From positions 1-35,603 of IMG/VR virus record IMGVR_UViG_3300032156_000044: a stretch of 35,603 nucleotides of DNA. One strand, 5' to 3'. The notes beneath the pieces were generated by a model that searched no databases, was not told where the DNA came from, and saw nothing but the letters and a program-made list of their open reading frames with translations. Origin of the DNA: a virus. Positions 2,991 through 35,603 of the stretch are shown here, one piece after another (positions within the stretch are counted from its first letter, which is position 1; every line of letters starts with the position of its first letter). The translations under genes were made by a program, and so were the position numbers.

Positions 2991-3176
2991 ATGCCAAACG
3001 TACAACCAGGTGAATCAAAAGATGACTTTCTCAAAAGATGCATTCCGATGCTTCGTAATGAAGGTAAACCAGAAGATCAGGCAATAGCTATATGCGAATC
3101 AATGTATGAAGAAAAAAAGATGAGCGCATATGAAAGAACCTGCAAAAAATTAAATATAAAACCATATGTCAGATAA
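2991..3176 (+). CDS. Two-cysteine mini-protein upstream of portal
   Basis: 61 aa. The N-terminal half contains FLKRCIPMLRNEGKPEDQ followed by AIAICESM: two cysteines exactly 17 residues apart, in what looks like a helix-turn-helix hairpin. The same C-x17-C spacing with matching I, G and A positions appears in the protease-scaffold at 24889 (PWDQCISDQLAAGYSQ then ESADKVC). The C-terminal half is basic (YERTCKKLNIKPYVR). The gene overlaps the portal start by 11 bases, so it is probably translationally coupled to portal. Function unknown; a head-assembly accessory is suggested by position and the shared module. Confidence 0.65.
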   Translation: MPNVQPGESKDDFLKRCIPMLRNEGKPEDQAIAICESMYEEKKMSAYERTCKKLNIKPYVR

Positions 3177-4449
3177 TTTAATAAAATTCAAAACTATAGA
3201 AGTTAATAAGGAAAATTTCCTTCAGGTTATTAATCCAGACCAGCAAGTCAATGAATATGACGGTATTCTATATTATAATACCGGAATATATGGCTCTAAA
3301 TATGATAATGCGTTTCCTCAATTTTTACTGGATCTATATATAAATGCAACATCGGTACATTCGAATTTCATTAATCTCAAAGCCACATTAATTCAAGGAA
3401 ATAATTTACAAGCTGAAGATGATACTCAAGCATCGCTGGTAGATCCATTTTTGATGAAATACAATAAAACCGGAGATAATCTCAAAAGCATTTATTCAAA
3501 AGCTTCATCTGATATGGCTTTATTTGACGCAGTTATTTTTCAATGTGTATTCAATCGTGAAGGCGAGGTTGCTGAAATTTATCATATTCCGACACAAAAT
3601 TTCAGACTTGGAAAACTCAATAAATATGGATGGTCTGAATTCGGATATTTGAGTTCTAACTGGGGCATTATAACAAACCAAACCAGATATGTTACAATGC
3701 CGAATAAAGAATATGTAAAAATTCGAATGTGGAGCCCAGGTGACTGGAAAAAATGGCCCGTTCAATTGATGTATTGTAAACCTTATTCATATTCTCCATA
3801 TGCTATTCCAAGTTACAATGCTGGAATTAACTGGATTTTAGTGTCTCATGAGATAAGCGAATTTCACAAAAATAATTTAAAGACAAATTTATTTCTTTCT
3901 GGAATTTTAACTCAATTAAAAGGTTCAATGTCTGATGAGCAACTTGATGAGAATGCCAATGAAATAGAAAAATTTTATGCCGGATCAAAAGGTAGAAAAG
4001 TTTTACTTGCTTATGTTGATGATATGAATAATAAACCAACATTTGATTCTATTACTGGTGAAGAGCAAGATCAGATATTTGATGTATTACAAAAAGAGGC
4101 TTTTCAACAAGTAGTAACCGCTCACAATGGTTATCCGATTTTAGCTGGCGTCGATCCCAGAGGTGCAAATTTAGGCGGAGATTCAAATATGATCAATATT
4201 GCGCTTCAGGCATTTACTCATTTGGTAACCGATAAAAAGAAACAAGTTATTCTTGATAGTATAAATCGCATTTGTGCGATCAATAAGATTCCACCTGTAA
4301 CTGCAATCACAGAACCATTGAAAATCACAATGCCAATTCCTCAGCCAGATGATCTTACAAAAAATGAAAGGAGAGCATATCTTTATGACCTTCCGGAGAT
4401 TGATGAAAGTCAAAATAATGTAACACCAACAAATACAATTCCTAGTTAA
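3166..4449 (+). CDS. Portal protein
   Basis: 427 aa, the usual size for a siphovirus portal. Portals form the dodecameric DNA channel at one capsid vertex and dock terminase, then the connector. Features that fit: an N-terminal wing with SVHSNFINLKATLIQGNNL, a central helical stem region with SHEISEFHKNNLKTNLFLSG, EIEKFYAGSKGRKVLLAYV and DDMNNKPTFDSITG, and the late segment QVVTAHNGYPILAGVDPRGA and GGDSNMINIALQAF, typical of portals from Bacteroidota phages. The C-terminus is a disordered Asn/Thr/Pro tail. It is directly followed, one base after its stop, by a connector-like gene. It is unusually distant from terminase (about 8 kb, with the early genes between). Confidence 0.8.
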   Translation: MSDNLIKFKTIEVNKENFLQVINPDQQVNEYDGILYYNTGIYGSKYDNAFPQFLLDLYINATSVHSNFINLKATLIQGNNLQAEDDTQASLVDPFLMKYNKTGDNLKSIYSKASSDMALFDAVIFQCVFNREGEVAEIYHIPTQNFRLGKLNKYGWSEFGYLSSNWGIITNQTRYVTMPNKEYVKIRMWSPGDWKKWPVQLMYCKPYSYSPYAIPSYNAGINWILVSHEISEFHKNNLKTNLFLSGILTQLKGSMSDEQLDENANEIEKFYAGSKGRKVLLAYVDDMNNKPTFDSITGEEQDQIFDVLQKEAFQQVVTAHNGYPILAGVDPRGANLGGDSNMINIALQAFTHLVTDKKKQVILDSINRICAINKIPPVTAITEPLKITMPIPQPDDLTKNERRAYLYDLPEIDESQNNVTPTNTIPS

Positions 4450-4450
4450 A

Positions 4451-4990
4451 ATGGAAAGTACTTTAACAACTGTAAATGATTTAAAAAATCTGACAACAAT
4501 TTCAGCGAATGCTGATCCTGAATTGCTTTATCCATTTCTATTGATTTCTCAGCAATTATATGTAGAACCTATACTTGGAGCTGGATTATATGCTGATATT
4601 TTATATAAATTTGATCATTCTCAATTAACAGGAAGCCCTGAAACCACATTATATGAAGAATATATTGTAAATGCTATTGCTTATGGTGCCCTTTATTCAG
4701 CTATGCCTTTCATTGCTTTTAAAATACAACGTACAGGAATTTCCACAATGACAACCGATGTTCTAACGCCAGCAGATTCCGAACAAATGACAATGCTTTT
4801 ATCAAAAGCGGAGAATTTAAAAGCTTTTTATTGTAATAGATTGGAACATTATCTCGTTGATAATAAGACTTTATTTCCTCTTTATAAACAAAACACTGTT
4901 GAACAATCCAATGGCGGCAATATATATCTAGGATTCAAAGATTCACCAGATGATGATTTCTGGACCTCGGATAAAACGAGCAATTGTTAA
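4451..4990 (+). CDS. Head-tail connector-like protein (DUF6712-type)
   Basis: 179 aa. The helical N-terminal half with ISQQLYVEPILGAGLYADI, then a Tyr/Ala-rich helix (YIVNAIAYGALYSAMPFIAF), matches small helical connector proteins that follow portal in Bacteroidota phages (family name recalled, not searched). These sit under the portal and complete the head after DNA packaging. The segment RTGISTMTTDVLTPAD is a likely loop; the C-terminus is acidic and aromatic (DSPDDDFWTSDKT). It is the last gene of the rightward cluster; its stop lies only 3 bases from the stop of the convergent leftward gene. Confidence 0.6.
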   Translation: MESTLTTVNDLKNLTTISANADPELLYPFLLISQQLYVEPILGAGLYADILYKFDHSQLTGSPETTLYEEYIVNAIAYGALYSAMPFIAFKIQRTGISTMTTDVLTPADSEQMTMLLSKAENLKAFYCNRLEHYLVDNKTLFPLYKQNTVEQSNGGNIYLGFKDSPDDDFWTSDKTSNC

Positions 4991-16433: not shown

Positions 16434-16871
16434 ATGACAATTCAAAATCTGGTTGATGTTTGTAAGGACATAACCTTACATAAATTACAATTTAAATCCT
16501 TTTATATTGGTAATACCTGGGATATGTCAGCTGGTAAAGCTGATATCTATCCATGTTTATGGCTTGAAATGCCAGTTTTAGTAGATTATCAGACAATTAA
16601 TAAGATCAATAAGCAATTTACATTTTCTCTTGATCTTATAATATTACCAAAATTGGATGATACCACGGATGAAATTAATATGATTTCCCACATGGAAGAA
16701 TATGCGGATGAATTTCTTTATTATTTAAAACAGAATCCGGATTTTATCTTAATGGATTTTCCGACTGGATTAACGATCAAGTCGATTAATGCCGATAATG
16801 CCTGTGGGATCAGACTTGATATTAAAGTAAAAACTGGTAGAGTATGTCCGCCATTAGATTTAATAACATAA
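16434..16871 (+). CDS. Neck / tail-completion protein (putative)
   Basis: 145 aa. Pattern: VCKDITLHKLQFKSFYIGN, then WDMSAGKADIYPCLWLEMPV, a strand FTFSLDLIILPKLDDTTDE, a helix EEYADEFLYYLKQ, and FPTGLTIKSINADNACGIR. This alpha/beta layout, with conserved 'SFyiGntWDm' and 'INADNACGIRLDI', is one I associate with a single-copy gene in Bacteroidota phages next to an HK97 gp10-like gene, as here. Small proteins in this place form the tail terminator or neck ring. Homology not tested. Confidence 0.6.
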   Translation: MTIQNLVDVCKDITLHKLQFKSFYIGNTWDMSAGKADIYPCLWLEMPVLVDYQTINKINKQFTFSLDLIILPKLDDTTDEINMISHMEEYADEFLYYLKQNPDFILMDFPTGLTIKSINADNACGIRLDIKVKTGRVCPPLDLIT

Positions 16872-19820: not shown

Positions 19821-21869
19821 ATGAGTAATATTTCGAATTTACAAATTAAAACTGAGTTGGGTGATCTAATTTATCGCCAAGTTTCGGATTTAAACCTCTC
19901 CTTTTCTCGGATTGTTGATGACTTTACGGATATTTCCAACAAATATGGAGATTTTTCTTATGAATTTAATTTACCAATTATCAAAGAAAACTCCAAAATA
20001 TTTGGGGCCCCAGAAACTATCGGCAGCAAGAATTTTTTCATAAAAAATAGAAATATTCGATGTCAAGTTTATAATAATAATCAATTGATATTAGATGGAT
20101 TAATAAATCTGGAAGGATTAACAAAAGATACATATAAATGTAAATTCTTTTCAAAATTCAAGGAGCTTGTTGATACTTTAAATTCTAAAACCACTACTGG
20201 TGAAAATAAAACATTGAGAGATCTCAATTTTCCTATCATTCATAACTGGAAATATGAAACATCAATCATTGGTCATATTTTAGCCGACTATAAAAATAGC
20301 GACGAAACATTCTATCAATACCCATTGTCCTTTTATTCAACCTTTTATACTCAATATAGCATTTATAGTGGCTTGACTGATTATCAAGGACATACATTTG
20401 ACGCAGATAGGCCCAGAGAAAATTATTATTATTTACTCAATACAGCTGGCGGGCAGAATAATCATATCTATTTTCATCAACTTCCTCCTGCTGTTTATAT
20501 TGTTTCAATAATGGAACAGATTCTAGAGGATGCAGGATGGTCTCTTGGAGGACAATTCTTCCTTGATCCTAATATTAAAAAGATAATATTATTATATTCT
20601 GGTGAAGATGACATTTATGACCAAGCTATTACAGGCAATACAGTATTTCAAGGATCTTCTCCAGTTAATTTGAATATATCTAAATTTCTTCCTGATATGG
20701 GTCAGGCTGATTTTATCAAAGGTATAATGAATTATTTTAATTTATATTTCAGGATCGATACTAATAATAAGATAATTGAATTCGAAACTTATGACACATA
20801 TTTCAGGAATACCGATGATATTGATCCATATGACATAACATCAAGAATTGATGAGAGCTCATCAAATAATAGTACGACATATTTTCTTAATAATGATCCA
20901 TCAATTGTTTTTGATAAAGCTGAGAATAGGAATATTTTTGGTGATAATAGAGTGATAACAGGAGCAACAGATAATGCTGTTACAACGCCATGGGTGGGCG
21001 TATCCAATACCAGATTCAATCAGACATTCAACAGGATCGGATATACTGAACAAACTAATGTGAATTTGAATAATTATGTTGCTACGGTTACAAAAATCGA
21101 TATACCATTTTCTGAGCCAACCATTAAAAGACATTTTATATGGAATGATTTTGATATTAATGAAGTTGATCAATCCGCTGGCTGTCATATATTGTATTTG
21201 CCATTATTATCCAAACAAACACCAGCGGATAACAACTCTATGAAATTTAATAGGAATAATGCCGACAACTATCTATTTAATAATGAATCATCAATAAAAT
21301 TTCAAGGAAGTGGCTCATTGATGTATTATTATGGAGTATCAACATCGGATTTTGAGAATAAAGCTGGTCTCGGAGCTATTCCAAATTATCTTTATATTAA
21401 TATCTTTGATTTTACAGGATCAACGATTTATAATCTTCCAATTCCTATTGTCAGTCCTTTCCAACTTTCGAATTACAGAACAGATGTTGAAGCCTGGTTA
21501 AATGGTATTAATACAACTAATCTGGAGGATCGTAGGACATCTGTTGCTTCTTACCTACAATCTATATGGCAGATGTTAGGTAGTTCAACTGGCGTTACGT
21601 CAGGTATGACTACGGATTATTCTCTGGTATTTGATGACGGCGGATATTTCCATGAAACTCTTTGGACAAAATTCCATAAATACAAATGGGATAGATATAA
21701 GAATTCGGAATTATTCACTGGAGACATAATAATGAATTCCTATGATTGGGATCAGATGCAGATAAATCGTCCACTCAGATATAAAGGAGAGTTATATTCA
21801 TTGGTGAGTATTAATGGATTCAATCCGATAACTCAACGAGGACAAATAAGCATGATAAAAAAATATTAA
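19821..21869 (+). CDS. Tail hub / tip structural protein (putative)
   Basis: 682 aa. The N-terminus has LSFSRIVDDFTDISNKYGDF and SYEFNLPIIKENSKIFGAP, a block typical of a large single-copy tail protein found beside the tape measure in Bacteroidota phages. The middle has GIMNYFNLYFRIDTNNKIIE and FETYDTYF, reminiscent of hub proteins with an 'N-x-F-N-L' followed by 'n-x-I-x-F-E-x-Y'; the C-terminal part ends with RPLRYKGELYSLVSINGFNP. A role as the tail hub through which the tape measure passes is inferred from this and from the next gene, 1 base after its stop. No peptidoglycan hydrolase motif seen. Confidence 0.6.
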   Translation: MSNISNLQIKTELGDLIYRQVSDLNLSFSRIVDDFTDISNKYGDFSYEFNLPIIKENSKIFGAPETIGSKNFFIKNRNIRCQVYNNNQLILDGLINLEGLTKDTYKCKFFSKFKELVDTLNSKTTTGENKTLRDLNFPIIHNWKYETSIIGHILADYKNSDETFYQYPLSFYSTFYTQYSIYSGLTDYQGHTFDADRPRENYYYLLNTAGGQNNHIYFHQLPPAVYIVSIMEQILEDAGWSLGGQFFLDPNIKKIILLYSGEDDIYDQAITGNTVFQGSSPVNLNISKFLPDMGQADFIKGIMNYFNLYFRIDTNNKIIEFETYDTYFRNTDDIDPYDITSRIDESSSNNSTTYFLNNDPSIVFDKAENRNIFGDNRVITGATDNAVTTPWVGVSNTRFNQTFNRIGYTEQTNVNLNNYVATVTKIDIPFSEPTIKRHFIWNDFDINEVDQSAGCHILYLPLLSKQTPADNNSMKFNRNNADNYLFNNESSIKFQGSGSLMYYYGVSTSDFENKAGLGAIPNYLYINIFDFTGSTIYNLPIPIVSPFQLSNYRTDVEAWLNGINTTNLEDRRTSVASYLQSIWQMLGSSTGVTSGMTTDYSLVFDDGGYFHETLWTKFHKYKWDRYKNSELFTGDIIMNSYDWDQMQINRPLRYKGELYSLVSINGFNPITQRGQISMIKKY

Positions 21870-24888: not shown

Positions 24889-26370
24889 ATGAAAAAGAGA
24901 TTACCAATTTATGAATTTATCATAAGTGAAAATGATGATGGAAGCGGAATTTCTGCTATCTCAATAGTAAATTCACCAGCATTTCAATCAAAAGTAAAAT
25001 TAATGTTTTCAAAAGAAAAATTTCAATTTATTACTCTTGCCGATAAAAAAGGTAGGAAAAGAAAAATTGCTGGTTTGGCTTTAATACCAAATGAATTAGT
25101 TTTTCGTATTGATGATTTAACTGGTGAAAACTACTATGGCTTTTTCAGCGCTGAAACAATTGAGAAAATTGTTGAAAAATTCCATTCTGAATTAAATAAC
25201 AATAAAGTTAATCTTGACCATAATGATAATGAATTTATTAACGCAGTTCTTATTGAAGATTTCATTGTAAATTCAGAAGAAAGAATTGCTGATTTAAAAG
25301 CGATTGGAATTGAACATAAGAATATAATGGGCTCATGGTTCACGAAATATCTTATCAAAGATGATAAAGCTCTTAAAGAAATTGAAATGAGTATGGACGA
25401 AGGAAATCCAGTTGGCCTAAGCGTTGAATGTTACCTTGATCGCATAATGGTTCAAATGACCAAAAATAATTATAATTTTAAAATGAAAAAAGATAAAAAA
25501 AATCTATTGGATAAAATTGTTGCTCTCTTCAAAAGTGAAAGCTTCGAAAGAGCATTAGTCCCAGAACTGGGATTTGAAATTGAATGGAATGATGTTGGTT
25601 CTCCAGTCAACAAAGTTGAAGTTGACCCGAATGGAAACGAAACATTATCTCCTGTTGGCCCTGGCGAGTTCATAACTGAATCGGGCGTTGTTATAGCTGA
25701 TGACTCATCAAACTTATTGGAAGTTCGTGAATTGCCAGCTCAACCAGAAGAAACTATCGCAGCAGAACAACCAGTATCTGGAAATACTGAGAATCCTGAT
25801 GAAAAGTTAAAATTGCCTGTTGATGAAGAACTCAAAGATTATCCATGGGATCAATGCATATCCGATCAGTTAGCAGCAGGATATTCTCAAGAATCGGCAG
25901 ATAAAGTCTGCGGATATATTAAAAGTAAAAATATGTCTAAAGAAAGTTTAACCGATGAAATTCTCAGAGAAATTCTTGGTGATGAAAATTGTCTAACCTG
26001 CAAGGATAAGAAAAAAATGGCCGAAGATAAATTACAGGATCCAATTGAGCCACCAGTTGAACTTCCTCCTGCCGAACCGCCTGTTGATGTTAAATCAAAG
26101 ACTATTGGTGAAGTTGTTGGAACCAATGATGGTGAATATTGGGTTAAAGTAGTTGTCGAAGGCGGCATTGTAACTGAGGCTGAAGTCAGTAGTGAAACTG
26201 ATTTACTCAAGACCCAGTTAGAAGAAGTTAAAAAAGAGAATGATGAGCTTAATAAGAAGTTGAAAGAACCGATTGGCGAACCAATTCTCGAACCTGTTCC
26301 TGAAAAGAAAGAATGGAGCAAGATGAATGCTTATGAAAAAGCTCTCTATAGGGCAAAACAGGAAAAATAA
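24889..26370 (+). CDS. Capsid maturation protease fused to scaffold (XkdF-like)
   Basis: 493 aa. Residues 1-190 resemble XkdF-type serine proteases that process the head: IYEFIISENDDGSGISAISI and VNSPAF, then AGLALIPNELVFR, the likely catalytic His in VNLDHN (H111), and the Ser in GLSVEC (S178). From about 200 it becomes an acidic, Pro/Glu-rich scaffold-like extension with a predicted coiled coil (about 432-470). A C-x17-C helical hairpin starts at PWDQCISDQL (C323, C341), the same module as in the 61-aa protein beside portal. A CxxC (C368/C371, NCLTCKDKK) follows. The basic C-terminus (ALYRAKQEK) may bind capsid subunits. Placed directly before the capsid gene. Confidence 0.75.
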   Translation: MKKRLPIYEFIISENDDGSGISAISIVNSPAFQSKVKLMFSKEKFQFITLADKKGRKRKIAGLALIPNELVFRIDDLTGENYYGFFSAETIEKIVEKFHSELNNNKVNLDHNDNEFINAVLIEDFIVNSEERIADLKAIGIEHKNIMGSWFTKYLIKDDKALKEIEMSMDEGNPVGLSVECYLDRIMVQMTKNNYNFKMKKDKKNLLDKIVALFKSESFERALVPELGFEIEWNDVGSPVNKVEVDPNGNETLSPVGPGEFITESGVVIADDSSNLLEVRELPAQPEETIAAEQPVSGNTENPDEKLKLPVDEELKDYPWDQCISDQLAAGYSQESADKVCGYIKSKNMSKESLTDEILREILGDENCLTCKDKKKMAEDKLQDPIEPPVELPPAEPPVDVKSKTIGEVVGTNDGEYWVKVVVEGGIVTEAEVSSETDLLKTQLEEVKKENDELNKKLKEPIGEPILEPVPEKKEWSKMNAYEKALYRAKQEK

Positions 26371-27376: not shown

Positions 27377-27898
27377 ATGTCATGCGAATTATTAAATGGA
27401 ATTGTAGGCGTTTGTGAATATTCTTCTAGTGGATGTGAAGCCCTATGGCTAGCTAATAAATCAGACATAACAGGTTCAACTGTTTATGATGCTTGTGGTC
27501 AAGTCACTGGAATAACATGGGCTGGTGGAAGTCCAACCGTTTATGAGATTGAAGGATCATTGGACAGTATTACGTTTAGTGACGATTTGGTCGTTAATGG
27601 CTCAAGGAGAAACTGGTTACAGACTATAAACTTCGGATTGGGTTCAATTGATTGCACCATTCTTAAAACACTCGAAGATATTGGTCTATCTAATCTTGTT
27701 GCTTTTGTTAAAACAGCTGATGGTTCTTATCGAGTTTTCGGATTGAAAGGTTCGGGACTTCGTGCAACTGTTATGACATCGGCTTCAGGAACTGCAGCTG
27801 GAAATGACGGTAATGTTACCGTTACAATAGCTGGAAGTTCTCTTGGAAAAGCCTCTTTTGTCGAAAGCTCTCTTGCAGAAACATTCTTAGTTATCTAG
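27377..27898 (+). CDS. Major tail (tube) protein, putative
   Basis: 173 aa, beta-rich. SITFSDDLVVNGSRRNWLQT, then LKTLEDIGLSNLVAFVKTAD, GSYRVFGLKGSGLRATVMTS and SASGTAAGNDGNVTVTIAGS fit the tail-tube fold: strand-helix-strand, then 'sG.a.gD.ng.tvt..G'. The two next genes begin with diverged copies of the same domain (compare [20 protein letters not shown] in 29505). Cotranscribed with the capsid gene and followed by an excellent terminator, as expected for the second most abundant virion protein. Cysteines cluster in the first 40 residues. Confidence 0.65.
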   Translation: MSCELLNGIVGVCEYSSSGCEALWLANKSDITGSTVYDACGQVTGITWAGGSPTVYEIEGSLDSITFSDDLVVNGSRRNWLQTINFGLGSIDCTILKTLEDIGLSNLVAFVKTADGSYRVFGLKGSGLRATVMTSASGTAAGNDGNVTVTIAGSSLGKASFVESSLAETFLVI

Positions 27899-27928
27899 GT
27901 TGTTTTTCTTTTGTTGATTTAAATTGTT

Positions 27929-27966
27929 AAAAGCGCAGAGATTGGCTCTGCGCTTTTTGTTTTTTC
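27929..27966 (+). terminator. Strong intrinsic terminator after capsid and tail-tube genes
   Basis: Perfect 12-bp stem AAAAGCGCAGAG (27929-27940) / CTCTGCGCTTTT (27946-27957), loop ATTGG, followed by a T-rich run to 27965. It is the clearest rightward intrinsic terminator in the window and separates the highly expressed capsid unit from the adhesin genes. Confidence 0.9.
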
Positions 27967-27973
27967 GTTATAT
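27967..27973 (+). promoter_or_regulatory. GTTATAT late-promoter-like element (site E)
   Basis: GTTATAT starts immediately after the terminator T-run and lies 16 bases before the ATG at 27990. A terminator directly abutting the element strongly suggests that transcription restarts here. Confidence 0.65.
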
Positions 27974-27989
27974 ATAATATTATTGATTT

Positions 27990-29492
27990 ATGTCAATTGG
28001 AACTTGTCGTTATATAAATTCTGATATTCAAAAATTTTATCTAGCTATTTGGAACTCAACAATTGTTCCAGTTTATTCCGCAAATAATATTATAATAAGA
28101 TATGAATGGATTACCACTTGGTATGAAATTAAACTCAATACAGCCACTATAACATATCTTCAGGAATTAAGCACACAGAATCCAAATGGATTATATTATG
28201 ATGAAAAGATATCCATATCAATTCCTAAAGCTGAAAATTCCAAATGGAAGGAACTGGTAAATTTACTTACCGACAAATATATTGTGATCTTTCAAGATAG
28301 TAACAATACCTGGTTTACATTCGGATATAGATATGGAGCTCAAGTTAAAAGTTATGTTCTGGCAGAAAATCAATATATTATTTCGCTTGATAGTCCTCAT
28401 GCTAATAATTTACCAACATTAATTGATGAAAGTTATATTTTGAGTGATATAATTAATAATCCAACTCCAACTGTAAGTCCGACCATATCTTTAAGTTCAA
28501 CTATAACTCCGACTAGTACGCCTACCAGAACTCCAACCAGAACAGTTAGTAAAACGCCAACGCTAACTAGAACACCAATGATAACATCAACAGTAACACC
28601 ATCATTATCAATATCAACAACGCCATCAACAACGCCATCAGAAACACCGTCAGAAACACCAATAGAAACGCCAACAGAAACACCAACGGTAACACCATCA
28701 TTGTCAATATCAGCAACGCCATCGGTAACACCATCAGAAACACCATCAGAAACACCAACATTAACGCCATCAATATCGATGACACCATCAACAACACCAT
28801 CAATAACGATAAGCACATCTTGCGCAAGACCAGGAGGATTAACGCAATATATTTTATATTATGCATATAGTGGAATTACTGGAAGTACATCATTTATTGA
28901 TTCAGTTGCTGAAGCTTGTGAAGCTGTAGAATATTGGGGTTTAACAACATTTTATGGATTTGTGGGAGATAGTGTGAGTTTAACTATTGGACAAGCTATG
29001 TATTATTTAGGCGGTACAAGTTGTGATCTTACCGCAACAGGATATTATATTGTTAATATTGATGCCAATCCAACTGTTATATATATTCTTAATGGATATA
29101 TTGATAGTTTTCCATCCTGTCCTAATATTACGCCAACGCCAACGCCAACAATAACACCGACGATAACACCATCATTATCAATATCAATGACACCAACAGA
29201 AACGCCAACATTAACACCATCATTATCAATATCAATGACACCGACTCCAACAACAGTAGCGTTTGGTTATAATGTTAAGATATATAATTGCAGTGGTTCA
29301 ACTTGTATTAGCGTTGCTGGATTTGATCTATTTGAAGTTAATCAAGTATTAACAGTTGGAAAATATTATCATATTGAGCCTGGTGGAACGCCTTATTCAA
29401 TTGAAGTACAAAGTACTGGCTCATTAGGAGGAACAGTTGAAACAATATTAGCAGGTCCATTTGATACCTGCGGGGAAGGATGTCAAGTATAA
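27990..29492 (+). CDS. Tail-tube-domain protein with TPS linkers and adhesion domains
   Basis: 500 aa. Residues 1-155 repeat the tail-tube-like fold of the preceding gene (NGLYYDEKISISIPKAENSK, LLTDKYIVIFQDSNNTWFTF, GYRYGAQVKSYVLAENQYII). Then a Thr/Pro/Ser linker (about 157-275, units such as TPSLSISTTPS and TPSETPSETP), a compact domain at about 276-380 (CARPGGLTQYILYYAYSG, SCDLTATGYYIVNIDAN), a second linker ([20 protein letters not shown]), and a small C-terminal domain (NVKIYNCSGSTCISVAGF ... DTCGEGCQV). It probably forms an arm on the tail or tail tip and displays glycan-binding modules. The linker Thr/Ser could be glycosylated by the host. Confidence 0.6.
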   Translation: MSIGTCRYINSDIQKFYLAIWNSTIVPVYSANNIIIRYEWITTWYEIKLNTATITYLQELSTQNPNGLYYDEKISISIPKAENSKWKELVNLLTDKYIVIFQDSNNTWFTFGYRYGAQVKSYVLAENQYIISLDSPHANNLPTLIDESYILSDIINNPTPTVSPTISLSSTITPTSTPTRTPTRTVSKTPTLTRTPMITSTVTPSLSISTTPSTTPSETPSETPIETPTETPTVTPSLSISATPSVTPSETPSETPTLTPSISMTPSTTPSITISTSCARPGGLTQYILYYAYSGITGSTSFIDSVAEACEAVEYWGLTTFYGFVGDSVSLTIGQAMYYLGGTSCDLTATGYYIVNIDANPTVIYILNGYIDSFPSCPNITPTPTPTITPTITPSLSISMTPTETPTLTPSLSISMTPTPTTVAFGYNVKIYNCSGSTCISVAGFDLFEVNQVLTVGKYYHIEPGGTPYSIEVQSTGSLGGTVETILAGPFDTCGEGCQV

Positions 29493-29504
29493 AATAAAAA
29501 AATT

Positions 29505-32500
29505 ATGGCAACGGATTTATTAAATAATTGTCACTTTGATCTAACCAAAATTAAGAAACTCTATATTGGTTCTAGATTATTTGTTACTGGCGCTCCAATT
29601 ACGTATCCGATTGTCTATTCTACTTTACCTGGTTCGGATGATTCCGTAATATCTTATTTAACTGCGAATATGACTACCATTACAATTGGTGGACAAATTA
29701 TCGCTATGGATGAGGTATGGAATACTGGTGAGAATATTACATTCACTGAAGAACTGGTTATTGATAATAAAAGCAAAAATTATGTCAAAACTCTGACATT
29801 TGATGTTTCTGGAATTGATCTGACTTTAGTTGACAAAACTGAACAATCGGCTTTATCAATTTATAATAATTTAGCTCCAACAAGTTGCTTGGTAATATTA
29901 ATTGATGAAAATGATAATGAATTAATAATTGGTTATGACAATCCATTAATTCTTGATACTGTTACTAATTCAATTGATATTGATAATAATGTTATGACAT
30001 TAACATATATTTCAACCAGTAAATCCAGAGCCAGAAATACGAGTTATACTTATAGTATTGATCCTACGCCATCTAATACTAGCACGCCAAGTCGTACTCC
30101 GACGCGCACACCATCATTATCAATAAGCGCAACTTTAACACCATCATTATCAATATCATCAACATTATCAATAACTCCAACAATTACGCCAACGATAACG
30201 CCATCGCTTTCAATAAGTTCAACACCACCTATAACTCCAACTGTTACGCCATCGTTATCGATATCAAGAACACCGACTCCAACTCCAAGTTTTGTTCCTG
30301 CAAGCATAACGCCAACTCTAACTATTACTCCAACAATAACACCGAGTACCACACCTCTAGTTGGAACACCGTTCATAACCGAATGGACTGTTTCTGGAGA
30401 TACAACAGATAGAACAATAACATTACCTTTATATAGTGGTACGACTGGATTAACATTTAATGCATATGTTGATTGGGGAGATGGTTCTGGATTATCAAAT
30501 ATATTATCATTTAATGATTCAAATCGAATTCATACTTATTCATCAAATGGTTCTTATCAAGTAAAAATTTATGGAGAGGCTCCAGGTTGGTTTATGCCTT
30601 TTATGGCAGTTGAAAACTATAAACTCACTAGTATCATAAATTGGGGCGATGCATCAGGATTTGGAGGATTTGAATATTTAGAATCTGGATTCGCTGATAC
30701 AAACATTAAATCAACTGGATCTGGTAAAATTCTAGCTAAACCAGGACTTGTAAGTTTAAATTCTATTTTCAATGCCTGTTATCTTCTTACTGGATGCACA
30801 AGCGGATTATTTGATAATTGTATAGAAGTAGAAGATTTTTCATTTGCATTTGTTTCTTGTCTTACTTTTAATTCTATTCCTGCAGATTTATTTAAATTTA
30901 ATATAAATGCTAAATCTTTTATCGCCACATTTGCTACTTGTTTATCACTTGATACTATTCCTGTTGATATTTTTAAACACAATATATTAGCTACTGATAT
31001 GAATGCTGTTTTTCAACAAACTAACATATCATCTATTCCATCAGGTATTTTTGATTATAATCCTCTTGTTACTAAATTTACACAAGCATTTGGTGGTTGT
31101 ACACAATTATCATCAGTGCCATCTGGAATTTTTGCACAAAATCTTTTAGTTACGAATTTTAGGCGCGTTTTTGAATTTTGTAATAATCTGCAACTTAATA
31201 ATCAAATATTTTATCTTTCAAGTGGAGATACTGCGACAAGATTCTTTAACCAGTCTGTTGATTTTACATATGCATTTCAAAGAACATCATTTACTGGAAT
31301 TCAAGGAATTGCGCCTGATTTATGGAATTGTGATTTTGGAACTGGAACAACAATAAGTACAAATGCTTTTGCTGGTGCTGGAAATAATTTAACATCAATT
31401 TCCAATTATTGTGATATTCCTGCTGCTTGGGGAGCAATTGCTTGTTCTCCATCACCAACGCCAACAGTAACTATTACTTCATCGAGGACCCCAACAATAA
31501 CGCCATCATTATCAATATCGGCGACACCATCATTAACACCAACCAGAACATCGTCATTATCTATTTCTGCTACGCCATCAATGACGCTTTCAATAACGCC
31601 AACTATAACATCATCATTGTCTATTTCTGCTACGCCATCCTTATCAATATCATCGTCTATGACGCCATCGATGACGCCATCATTATCAATATCAAAGACG
31701 CCATCAATAACATCAACTATTACGCCATCTTTATCAATATCATCATCTATGACGCCATCAATGACGCCATCATTATCTATATCTAAAACACCGTCAATAA
31801 CTCCATCATTAACTCCAACTCCATCTACAAGTCCAGCTCCAAGAGGATTTATAACAGAATGGAAAGTTAGTGGAGACGCCGCAGCAAGAACAATTGCATT
31901 ACCATTTACTGATAATGGAGTTTATAATGCAATAGTTAATTGGGGTGATGGTTCAATATCTGGAATCACATCTTATAATGACTCAAGAAGAACACATACA
32001 TACGCTTCAAATGGTACATATCAAGTAAGTATTTCTGGTGAAACTCCAGGTTGGAGTTTCCGTTATGGCTCAAGTTCTGATGCTTCGAAAGTAAATAATA
32101 TTGTATATTGGGGAGACGCCTCAATGTTTGGTGGATTCTCATATTTAGAATATGCATTTGAAGCTTGTATAACTATGAAATCATTAGGTACTGGAAAAAT
32201 ACTTGCTAAATCTGATTTAACAAGTTTAAAAGGTGCGTTAAGAAATCTATCAGTTTTAACTGGAATAACATCAAATTTATTTGACAATTGTATTAATGTT
32301 ACAGATGCGTCATTACTATTTGAATTTAATTTCGAGACAAGTTCGGCATCGACAGTTACAATACCAAATAATTTATTTGATTATATGACTGGCGTAACAA
32401 CATTTAACGAAGCATTTGATTATAACCATAATAGAATTAAAACTATACCAACTGGTTTATTTAAATATAATACTTTATGTATTGGTTTTAATAAAACATT

Positions 32501-33887
32501 TAGTGAACCAATTGTTACTTCAGGATTACAAATTAATCCTTGGACATTTTATACATCAAGTGGAGAAACATCAACTAGATTCTTAAATCAGGATGTTAAT
32601 TTTACTAATTGTTTCCGTAGAATATCATTTAGTGGAGCTCAAGGAAAAGCACCAGATTTATGGAATTGTAATTTTGGTAGTGGCACACCTACAAAAACAG
32701 GTTGTTTTAGTGGTGCTGGAAATGATTTAACATCAATTTCGAATTATTGTGACATTCCTGCTGCTTGGGGAGCAATTGCTTGTTCTCCATCACCAACGCC
32801 AACAGTGACTATTACTCCATCGAGGACACCAACGGTAACGCCAACAGTTTCACCAACGACAGGATTATCACCGACGCCAACTAAAACACTTTCGAAGACA
32901 CCAACGGTGACGCCATCATTATCTATATCATCATCTATGACGCCAACAGTAACACCAACCATAACAGCAACTCCAAGTACCACAATTACTCCAAGTATTA
33001 CTCCAAGTATTACTCCAAGTGAAACGCCTACTCCAAGTATTACTCCAAGTTTAACACCTTCAATATCAATTACTCCGAGTGTAACAGTAAGTATAACACC
33101 AAGTTTAAGTCCTGGTTATGTTCCTCCTCCAATGGTTGATTTCTTAATTGTAGGTGGTGGTGGTGGTTCATCTCAATACGCTGGTGGTGCTGGTGGTGGT
33201 GGATTTATTTACCGTACAGGAGAAACCATAACAACTGGTTCATTTAATGTCGTTGTTGGTGCTGGCGGTATTGGAGTTGGGCCTGCTGTTCCAAATAATG
33301 GTGGTAACTCTTCATTCTCTGGTATTACTGCTTATGGTGGTGGTGGTGGTGATGGTTATGGTAATACAGCAAGAAATGGTGCATCTGGTGGTGGTGTTAA
33401 AGCTGATATTGCTGGTGGCCAAGCAATTTATGGTTCTCAAGGAAATAACGGTGGTGCTGGTGGTACTTCTTATTATGCTGGTGGTGGAGGTGGAGCTGGT
33501 GAAGTTGGACAGGATGCTCAAGGAGGTGGAGGTACTGGTTCTGGTGGAAAAGGTGGAGATGGGTTACCTTGTTCAATAACAGGCGGAACAGTTTATTTTG
33601 GTGGTGGAGGTGGAGGATGCTGCTACTATGGAACTAAAGGTTTAGGTGGACTTGGTGGTGGTGGTTACGGTGGTGGTAATGGCGCTGCTCAACCTGGTAC
33701 TCCAAATACAGGTGGTGGTGCTGGTGGAGAAACTTATAATGTGCCTGGTGTTGATGGTGGTTCTGGAATTGTTATCGCTAGATTAAAAACAAGTGATTTT
33801 TCAAATATAACTGGTGGAACGCAAAGCATTGATGGTTCATATACAGTTGTGACTTTCACTTCAGATGGAACATTAGTTTTAAGTTAA
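29505..33887 (+). CDS. Giant modular adhesin: tail-tube domain, duplicated BspA-like domains, glycine-rich tip
   Basis: 1460 aa. About 1-185: tail-tube-like domain ([28 protein letters not shown]), a paralogue of 27377. TPS linker to about 288. About 289-645: a PKD-like start ([30 protein letters not shown]) and BspA/DUF285-type repeats ('F..C..l..IP.glF..n', e.g. [16 protein letters not shown]). TPS linker to about 780. About 781-1091: a second, diverged copy of that unit ([15 protein letters not shown]). TPS linker to about 1205. About 1209-1400: poly-glycine domain ([22 protein letters not shown]) ending [10 protein letters not shown], as in glycine-rich receptor-binding tips. Likely the main receptor adhesin. 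The two units share almost identical 128-bp 3' ends. Confidence 0.75.
31368..31495 (+). repeat. 128-bp domain-junction repeat, copy 1
   Basis: Bases 31368-31495 match 32706-32833 at all but about eight positions. It encodes the end of each BspA-like unit and the start of the next TPS linker ([18 protein letters not shown], then CSPSPTPTV). The remaining domain is much more diverged, so this end has been exchanged recently or is under strong selection. Confidence 0.8.
32706..32833 (+). repeat. 128-bp domain-junction repeat, copy 2
   Basis: Partner of 31368-31495, about eight differences, same reading frame. Confidence 0.8.
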
Positions 33888-33933: not shown

Positions 33934-34308
33934 ATGGAAAAACTTGTAGATTTATCTCTCAGCAGCGAATATGATTTGATTGTTGATAGAAATAAAAGCC
34001 TAGGTGTATCTGTTATATGTACTTATTTTTCCGGCTCAACTGAATATAATTATGATCTAACGCCATACTCTGGGGCAACAATTACCGTTAAAAACGATTC
34101 TGGAACGATTGTACAGACTTTCTCCACTCTTGATGGATCTATACTTCTTCAAGCTGGAGGCGTCTTTAAACTCGTTAAAACAGCGGAAGAAATGAATACC
34201 GTTCGCTCAGGCGTTTATCATTATGATATGTATTTGTCAAATAGTACATACCCAAAAAGAGCATTCCTAAGAGGAAAAATAACATACATTCAAAATATAA
34301 GTAATTAA
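33934..34308 (+). CDS. BppU-like baseplate / fibre-attachment protein
   Basis: 124 aa. An Ig-like beta sandwich is suggested by DLIVDRNKSLGVSVICTYF, LTPYSGATITVKNDSGTIVQ, a 'DGSILLQAGGVFKLVKT' segment and GVYHYDMYLSNSTYPKRAFL followed by RGKI. This order matches N-terminal domains of upper baseplate proteins (BppU type) that attach fibres to the tail. It sits 1 base before the GTSG fibre gene, so it is a good candidate for the fibre adaptor. The usual C-terminal helical part of BppU is missing, so it is a single-domain version. Confidence 0.65.
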   Translation: MEKLVDLSLSSEYDLIVDRNKSLGVSVICTYFSGSTEYNYDLTPYSGATITVKNDSGTIVQTFSTLDGSILLQAGGVFKLVKTAEEMNTVRSGVYHYDMYLSNSTYPKRAFLRGKITYIQNISN

Positions 34309-34309
34309 A

Positions 34310-35603
34310 ATGCCTAATTTAATATTAAATACGGATGTTGCGAAAGTGGTTATTAAGCCAGATCCAATATCAATTATATATACAGGAGTAACAAGTGGAA
34401 CTTCTGGAACGTCAGGAACATCTGGATCTGGTACTTCAGGAACATCTGGAACATCAGGTATAAATGGATCAAGCGGAACTTCTGGAATAAAAGGTTCAAG
34501 TGGAACATCTGGAACTTCTGGAACATCTGGTACTTCAGGAACATCTGGATTTGGTTCGTCTGGAACATCTGGTACATCTGGGCATGATGGTACATTTTTC
34601 GGCTCATCTGGCACATCTGGAACTTCTGGCATAAATGGATCTTCTGGAACTTCAGGAATAAACGGATCATCTGGAACTTCTGGAATAAAAGGCTCAAGCG
34701 GTACATCTGGAACATCTGGAACTTCAGGAACAAAAGGTACATCCGGAACTTCAGGAACATCTGGAATATCTGGAATTTCAGGAACATCTGGAACATCTGG
34801 TATAAATGGTTCATCTGGAACTTCTGGCATAAATGGCTCAAGTGGAACTTCAGGAATAAACGGATCAAATGGAACGTCTGGTACTTCGGGAACATCCGGA
34901 ACATCTGGATTTGGTTCATCTGGAACTTCTGGAACATCTGGACATGATGGTACATTTTTTGGATCATCTGGCACATCTGGAACTTCTGGCATAAATGGTT
35001 CATCAGGAACATCAGGCATAAATGGATCTTCAGGTTCTTCTGGTACTTCAGGAATAAATGGATCTTCTGGAACTTCAGGAATTTCTGGTAGTTCTGGGAC
35101 ATCTGGAATAAGCGGAAGTTCTGGAACATCTGGTATTTCTGGATCTTCTGGAACTTCTGGAATAGATGGTTCTTCTGGAACATCTGGAACTTCAGGAATA
35201 AATGGATCAAATGGAACATCTGGAACTTCTGGATTGGATGGTAGTTCAGGTACAAGCGGAACATCTGGTGTTTCCGGATCATCTGGAACTTCTGGAATTT
35301 CTGGTAGTTCAGGATCATCTGGAACTTCTGGTACATCTGGTATTTCTGGAACATCTGGAACTTCAGGATTAAATGGTAGTTCAGGTACAAGTGGAATATC
35401 TGGTTCTTCTGGAACTTCAGGAACATCTGGAACTTCTGGAATTTCTGGTAGTTCAGGATCATCTGGAACTTCTGGTACATCTGGTATTTCTGGATCTTCA
35501 GGTTCTTCTGGAACATCTGGAATTTCAGGATCATCTGGAACATCAGGAACATCTGGTATTTCTGGATCTTCAGGTTCTTCTGGAACATCTGGAATTTCAG
35601 GAT
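34310..35603 (+). CDS. GTSG-repeat tail fibre, N-terminal part (3' end cut by window edge)
   Basis: The frame starts at the ATG at 34310 (MPNLILNTDVAKVVIKPDPI) and is open to the end of the window. After a 27-residue head that likely binds the adaptor, the protein is Gly-Thr-Ser-Gly, Gly-Ile-Asn-Gly, Gly-Ser-Ser-Gly units almost without interruption, broken only by inserts such as GFGSSGTSGTSGHDGTFF, which occurs twice (near 34555 and 34915). The shaft is probably an extended trimeric fibre. The final 260 bases match the first 260 of the window in the same frame, so the gene most likely continues at base 2 and ends at 814 (about 615 aa). Repeat collapse in assembly may have changed the true length. 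Confidence 0.8.
   Translation, partial: MPNLILNTDVAKVVIKPDPISIIYTGVTSGTSGTSGTSGSGTSGTSGTSGINGSSGTSGIKGSSGTSGTSGTSGTSGTSGFGSSGTSGTSGHDGTFFGSSGTSGTSGINGSSGTSGINGSSGTSGIKGSSGTSGTSGTSGTKGTSGTSGTSGISGISGTSGTSGINGSSGTSGINGSSGTSGINGSNGTSGTSGTSGTSGFGSSGTSGTSGHDGTFFGSSGTSGTSGINGSSGTSGINGSSGSSGTSGINGSSGTSGISGSSGTSGISGSSGTSGISGSSGTSGIDGSSGTSGTSGINGSNGTSGTSGLDGSSGTSGTSGVSGSSGTSGISGSSGSSGTSGTSGISGTSGTSGLNGSSGTSGISGSSGTSGTSGTSGISGSSGSSGTSGTSGISGSSGSSGTSGISGSSGTSGTSGISGSSGSSGTSGISG
35344..35603 (+). repeat. Terminal repeat of window start (260 bp, 3 mismatches)
   Basis: Bases 35344-35603 align with 1-260 without gaps; differences are A/T at 127, 130 and 133 (35470, 35473, 35476). The frame is conserved across the join. 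Either the assembly ended in overlap of a circular or circularly permuted genome, or the two ends are different units of the same fibre repeat. Confidence 0.85.

Follow-up and report, generated by a model that had tools for sequence, protein, structure and literature searches.

Tandem tail-tube-family genes in a viral genome, two of them extended into long candidate host-binding arms

The C-terminal domains of the tail-tube proteins of lambda, T5 and YSD1 project outside the tube; SPP1 tails contain both bare and extended subunits, at a ratio of 3:1 (PMC8718954). Host cells are bound in lactococcal 936 phages by a carbohydrate-binding module on an extended tube protein (PMC6669499). In T5 the tube gene has been duplicated to give p140, which lies inside the collar where the side fibres attach; the T5 study presents this as a landmark confined to T5-like phages (PMC10038345). 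Here we describe three consecutive genes, called A, B and C, in a viral DNA of 35,603 nucleotides, from a phage of Bacteroidota type (IMG/VR record IMGVR_UViG_3300032156_000044, positions 1 to 35,603; hereafter the window), each with a predicted domain of the tail-tube family that is followed, in B and C, by long linkers and adhesin-type modules. We consider it likely that A is the major tube protein and that B and C are scarce tube copies with host-binding arms.

Tube-borne adhesins are known from lactococcal TpeX, SPP1 and lambda; what is new here is the gene duplication together with the long linkers. Like 936 TpeX, B and C would carry a C-terminal host-binding module on a tube subunit, with only part of the subunits extended, but TpeX arises by a programmed frameshift on one gene, whereas B and C are separate, diverged copies with long Ser/Thr/Pro linkers and different modules. 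As complete, separate open reading frames (ORFs), B and C lack the frameshift by which TpeX-like proteins are defined. SPP1 has bare and extended tube subunits in one phage (gp17.1 and gp17.1*), but these come from a frameshift that adds a small FN3 domain dispensable for infection, unlike the duplicated genes and long arms seen here. T5 also uses a tube-protein duplicate where its side fibres attach, but p140 is armless and the fibre is a separate protein, held by a collar (p132). Lambda gpV combines the tube fold with an outward C-terminal domain, and gpV-type tubes are among the top structural matches of A and C, but gpV is a single gene with one Ig-like domain on every subunit. Nonlabens phage P12024S has two members of the family (gp03 and gp09), the second adjoining a fibre-like gene (gp10), but these are not fused, and all three are annotated as hypothetical proteins.

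In the model that we favour, A would be the major tail-tube protein of a siphophage, and B and C would be diverged tail-tube copies, made in small amounts, whose tube domains act as minor subunits, docked within the tube or on its surface. Their C-termini would point outward, as in known tube proteins, and would carry long linkers with binding modules at the end (PKD, leucine-rich repeats, a glycine-rich domain and small modules), with B and C acting as host-binding arms. The ancestor of B would be a tube copy of the kind that relatives encode on its own, in front of a variable fibre gene, copy and arm having become one protein here. The model draws directly on the shared domain, the predicted tube fold of A and C, the gene order, the contrast in conservation, the terminators and the exchange of modules. 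The analogy with known tube proteins suggests that B and C are scarce tube-type subunits with outward arms, and on the same analogy these arms probably bind the host.

The N-terminal domains of A, B and C

The three ORFs lie where a preliminary description of the window, made from its sequence, had placed them (Table 1). That description also held that the N-termini of B and C repeat the fold of A, and a shared domain was borne out by pairwise matches and by an independent profile. A and the N-terminal domain of C align over 122 residues in BLASTP (39.7 bits, E 4e-9), an alignment that includes the motif pair singled out earlier, ITFSDDLVV in A and ITFTEELVI in C, and A matches B at 26.9 bits (E 7e-5, pairwise). 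Direct BLASTP between B and C gave no convincing match; two-member profiles of B and of C, each paired with its counterpart in a sister contig (L003), match each other at E 3.5e-5. In a six-way alignment of A, B, C and their L003 counterparts, we found a common N-terminus, C-x-[YF]-S...KLY, plus later strands, with B and C far diverged from A (about 20% identity). The N-terminal cysteine is near-invariant across the family (residue 13 in A, 6 in B and 9 in C) and stands in the context GRxxPCKxxxGGxK in relatives.

The independent profile was built from 89 proteins of relatives, taken from 76 viral and 2 bacterial-genome loci that were fetched with P12024S gp03 and its paralogue gp09, with the records of the window, L003, P12024S and Cellulophaga phage phi46:1 excluded. 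It scored A at 44.3, B at 40.2 and C at 18.1 bits, compared with maxima of 4.7, 9.4 and 7.5 bits, respectively, among 400 shuffled sequences each. A also matches phrog_19091 (E 9.7e-8), as do 63 of 66 sequences in alignment A7, and this family of A and its relatives, previously without an assigned function, gains a likely one. The N-terminal domain of C has no phrog_19091 match up to E 1, and its link to the family runs only through A and the broader profile. No match came from scanning a viral collection with A, B or C as single sequences, nor from tblastn of A, the C N-terminal domain, the capsid protein and the protease in a phage collection; L003 was reached via the capsid gene, and P12024S only when L003 proteins were queried with a permissive threshold. 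Looking for more domains of the C type, we found L003 only. On these sequence comparisons, A, B and C share one domain.

AlphaFold models were obtained for A (predicted local distance difference test, pLDDT, 76.5; predicted template modelling score, pTM, 0.71) and for the N-terminal domain of C (pLDDT 69.8, pTM 0.70). Foldseek searches of the PDB with both models gave weak E-values, the best about 0.01, with matches mostly to tail proteins. VIA comparison gave a top Z of 9.7 for A (root-mean-square deviation, rmsd, 3.5 with 122 residues aligned) and of 10.3 for C (rmsd 3.4 with 130 aligned). The best chain, 9mfe, was common to both, followed by lambda gpV, 80alpha, SPP1 and other tubes, and the listed matches are almost all phage tails, a gene transfer agent (GTA), contractile systems and Hcp. 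Both models form a beta-sandwich with one helix, as in solved tube proteins, and among predicted viral structures C matched a 199-residue protein of P12024L (E 7e-6), the length of a gp09-type copy. Since the family profile found no relative among PDB sequences, the fold assignment rests on predicted models. These models make a tail-tube-like fold of A and C well supported, and the profile points to a domain of the same family in B. The preliminary description had named differing N-terminal folds as the outcome that would speak against it; we found the same predicted fold in A and C, with B joined to them by profile.

Paired tube-family genes in related loci and the arms of B and C

Related loci share the order capsid, copy 1, small gene, portal, connector, copy 2 and a large (fibre) gene, anchored by the capsid gene, whose product in the window is 62-63% identical to its L003 counterpart and homologous to P12024S gp02 and phi46:1 gp03. 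Copy 1 and copy 2 match in all 492 of the 492 non-redundant pairs of two-copy loci. On the other hand, the gene after copy 2 matches in 102 of these 492 pairs, at a median coverage of 12%, and since 94 of its 122 matches begin within the first 30 residues, it appears to consist of a short constant start and a variable rest. This large gene is mostly without relatives among reference proteins, and the families that genes after copy 2 do match are tail fibre, tail spike, tail protein, SGNH/GDSL hydrolase and S74 chaperone. The P12024S gp09 and gp10 genes overlap by 4 bases, and in phi46:1 the two tube-family genes, gp04 and gp05, lie in tandem before gp06, whose SGNH product is recorded in the virion. 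When P12024S gp10 was considered as a relative of the leucine-rich arm of C, no match was found. With an iterated profile, three family members were found in a row between capsid and portal in Phocaeicola phage BD26P1 and Bacteroides phage C2_18_80S2P. In these Phocaeicola and Bacteroides phages the tandem genes lie after the capsid gene, at L085 8440-10062 and L086 8567-10114, and are all annotated as hypothetical. Duplicated tube genes are the usual state among the marine and gut Bacteroidota phages compared here.

Profiles made separately from copy 1 and copy 2 scored A at 31.2 versus 21.0 bits, respectively, and B at 13.0 versus 35.6. In a tree, copy 1 formed one clade (97/97), with B outside it, among the copy-2 branches. 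Given this profile preference and tree position, B is best read, from its sequence, as copy 2 joined to an arm. C scored 15.1 bits with the copy-2 profile versus 8.4 with the copy-1 profile, but the tree groups it with A (97/76) on long branches, and descent of C from copy 2 was not adopted.

A ends at its own stop and is followed by a strong terminator (fold z-score -3.65); L003 has a terminator in the corresponding position, built on another stem sequence. Among 33 two-copy loci, a terminator lies at most 200 nt after copy 1 in 15 and after copy 2 in none, and near-identity among several of the 15 reduces them to about seven lineages. Since a terminator after A, or after copy 1, would lower transcription of the later genes, its position fits A as the abundant subunit. 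A is probably the major tube subunit, and B and C are probably scarce ones, less expressed than A.

The Ser/Thr/Pro-rich linkers reported earlier in the proteins starting at 27990 and 29505 are real, with three runs in B (residues 160-190, 197-274 and 380-414) and six in C, proline recurring mostly every 4 residues. The arms measure about 340 residues in B, where no Pfam match was found, and about 1270 in C. The first block of the C arm matches leucine-rich-repeat (LRR) proteins in the PDB (E 1.4e-7), and in the second block PKD_4 is matched at residues 805-843 (E 1.1e-5). The two PKD-LRR blocks are repeats of one another, visible as DNA repeats 1338-1467 bp apart that are 73-81% identical, and the last linker (residues 1101-1199) is followed by a C-terminal Gly_rich_2 domain (E 1e-18). 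As A is bare, the tail would bear two tube-borne arms and not the three kinds of appendage first proposed. As for the proposal that minor tube subunits carry adhesin arms, its tandem tube-like domains, two of them fused to linkers and adhesin-type modules, were found, and the minor role of their bearers is made more probable by the terminator after A and by the variable fibre gene that relatives consistently have beside copy 2.

The sister contig L003, found via its capsid protein (63% identical), has the same gene triplet, with B adjoining A in both. Its A' is 69% identical to A, its B' is a stand-alone protein of 159 residues (37% identical to B), and the N-terminal domain of C is 40% identical to an internal domain of a longer L003 protein, C'. 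The PKD-LRR block of C is a separate gene in L003 (38% identical, E 3e-35), and the Gly_rich_2 domain, C-terminal in C, lies at the N-terminal end of the C-type protein in L003. Since both are placed differently in the two contigs, modules move between tube-anchored and free fibre genes.

Several observations weigh against reading B and C as tube copies with outward arms and A as the major tube protein. The position of the arm is not fixed, given the stand-alone B domain and the internal C domain of L003, and the L003 C domain alone scores at noise level with the independent profile (3.3 bits). The alignment behind the C model contained relatives of A and B, which may have steered the model. 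Finally, phi46:1 gp04 and gp05 are not marked as found by tandem mass spectrometry (MS/MS), whereas its capsid, portal, tape measure and the fibre-like gp06 are, which is awkward for gp04 as the major tube protein.

Possible placements of B and C in the virion

A tentative placement, which we rate as falling just short of an even balance, is that B and C form a special tail-tip ring like that of T5 p140 and do not line the shaft. It is consistent with the fibre gene that accompanies copy 2 in relatives, with the T5 precedent, in which p140, itself derived by duplication of the tube gene, is enclosed by the fibre collar p132 (PMC10038345), and with the conserved small protein encoded after C, which has a weak collar match. 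However, two fused copies would require two rings or a mixed ring, and the likeness to p140 is a gene-neighbour analogy.

It is rather unlikely that B and C are scattered along the shaft, occasionally replacing A in the manner of SPP1 gp17.1* or 936 TpeX. B and C do belong to the same domain family as A, the terminator after A would set a low ratio, and there is precedent in the two forms of SPP1 (3:1) and in the TpeX extensions that bind host cells. At about 20% identity, however, the ring contacts of B and C may no longer match those of A, and the tube domain is identical between the forms of SPP1 and of 936 phages, unlike in B and C. Less probable still is a head-tail joining ring formed by copy 2 (B), with the arms as neck whiskers: copy 2 comes after the portal and connector genes in relatives, and lactococcal phages have neck-borne adhesins (neck passage structure, NPS), but the fibre gene directly follows copy 2, and B adjoins A here and in L003 and lies far from the portal (3166-4449) and connector (4451-4990) genes of the window. 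We think it very improbable that the N-terminal domains share only the common tail-tube fold, with B and C being ordinary fibres of unrelated attachment role, since, although this fold also occurs in terminator, distal tail and hub proteins (PMC10038345), the link here is by sequence, beyond fold, and the three genes are in tandem here and in L003, as are three members in Phocaeicola/Bacteroides phages.

With B and C read as scarce tube copies carrying arms, a broader proposition can be put forward, on which we are evenly divided: Bacteroidota siphophages may keep a second, dedicated tube copy to which, as a general rule, rapidly changing receptor-binding arms dock, here fused to its arm and joined by a third copy with a very long one, and the tail would then grip the host via tube subunits and not only via a classical baseplate. 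In the literature that we searched, no paper described paired tail-tube genes serving as docks for fibres, which is not proof of absence. Copy 2 and its neighbouring gene would be a place to seek host-range determinants where fibres escape similarity searches, and the split form (P12024S type) and the fused form in this phage make the idea of a tube copy as fibre dock directly testable.

Gene map and neighbouring genes

Table 1. Features of the tube-gene region, in positions of the window.
Feature	Position	Strand	Basis
Major capsid protein, 304 aa	26423..27337	+	phrog_11320, E 1e-22; phrog_1623 (head and packaging), E 5e-9
A, single-domain tail-tube protein (predicted), 173 aa	27377-27898	+	fold, copy-1 profile, L003 identity
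Intrinsic terminator, 12-bp stem and T tract	27929..27957	+	between A and B
B, whole ORF, 500 aa	27990-29492	+	
B N-terminal tail-tube-family domain (predicted), about residues 1-159, copy-2 type	27990..28466	+	profiles; L003 homologue
B arm, Ser/Thr/Pro-rich linkers and two small modules, fold not assigned	28467..29492	+	phrog_15511 (function not assigned)
C, whole ORF, 1460 aa	29505-33887	+	
C N-terminal tail-tube domain (predicted), about residues 1-187	29505..30065	+	model, BLASTP with A
C arm block 1, Ser/Thr/Pro linkers, then PKD-like and leucine-rich-repeat module	30069..31462	+	
C arm block 2, Ser/Thr/Pro linkers, then second PKD-LRR module	31464..32800	+	
C arm end, 99-aa Ser/Thr/Pro linker and C-terminal glycine-rich domain	32805..33887	+	
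124-aa conserved protein between C and GTSG fibre	33934..34308	+	phrog_1084 (function not assigned)

The 124-aa protein is 77% identical in L003, and its only PDB match is a phage tail collar at a non-significant E of 0.27; as a weak lead, it is possibly a collar or anchor for the fibre. Two further tail genes had no PDB match: one at 16434, which its position led us to take as terminator-type, and one at 19821, taken as a hub on a weak match to phi46:1 gp20. Upstream of the capsid gene, 24889-26370 encodes a prohead protease of the XkdF type with a long C-terminal extension, possibly a protease-scaffold fusion.

Downstream of the 124-aa protein, an ORF with collagen-like GTSG repeats (34310-35603) runs off the end of the window, and the same repeat is open in frame 2 from 1 to about 570. 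Since the repeat occurs at both ends, the record looks like a circular or permuted, near-complete genome of 35.6 kb. The GTSG fibre is followed by a 157-aa protein (818-1291) that by eye resembles a small beta jelly-roll head. Apart from the tube genes, a 212-aa protein (1291-1929) combines a Ser/Thr/Pro linker with a C-terminal module; neither protein has a Pfam match.

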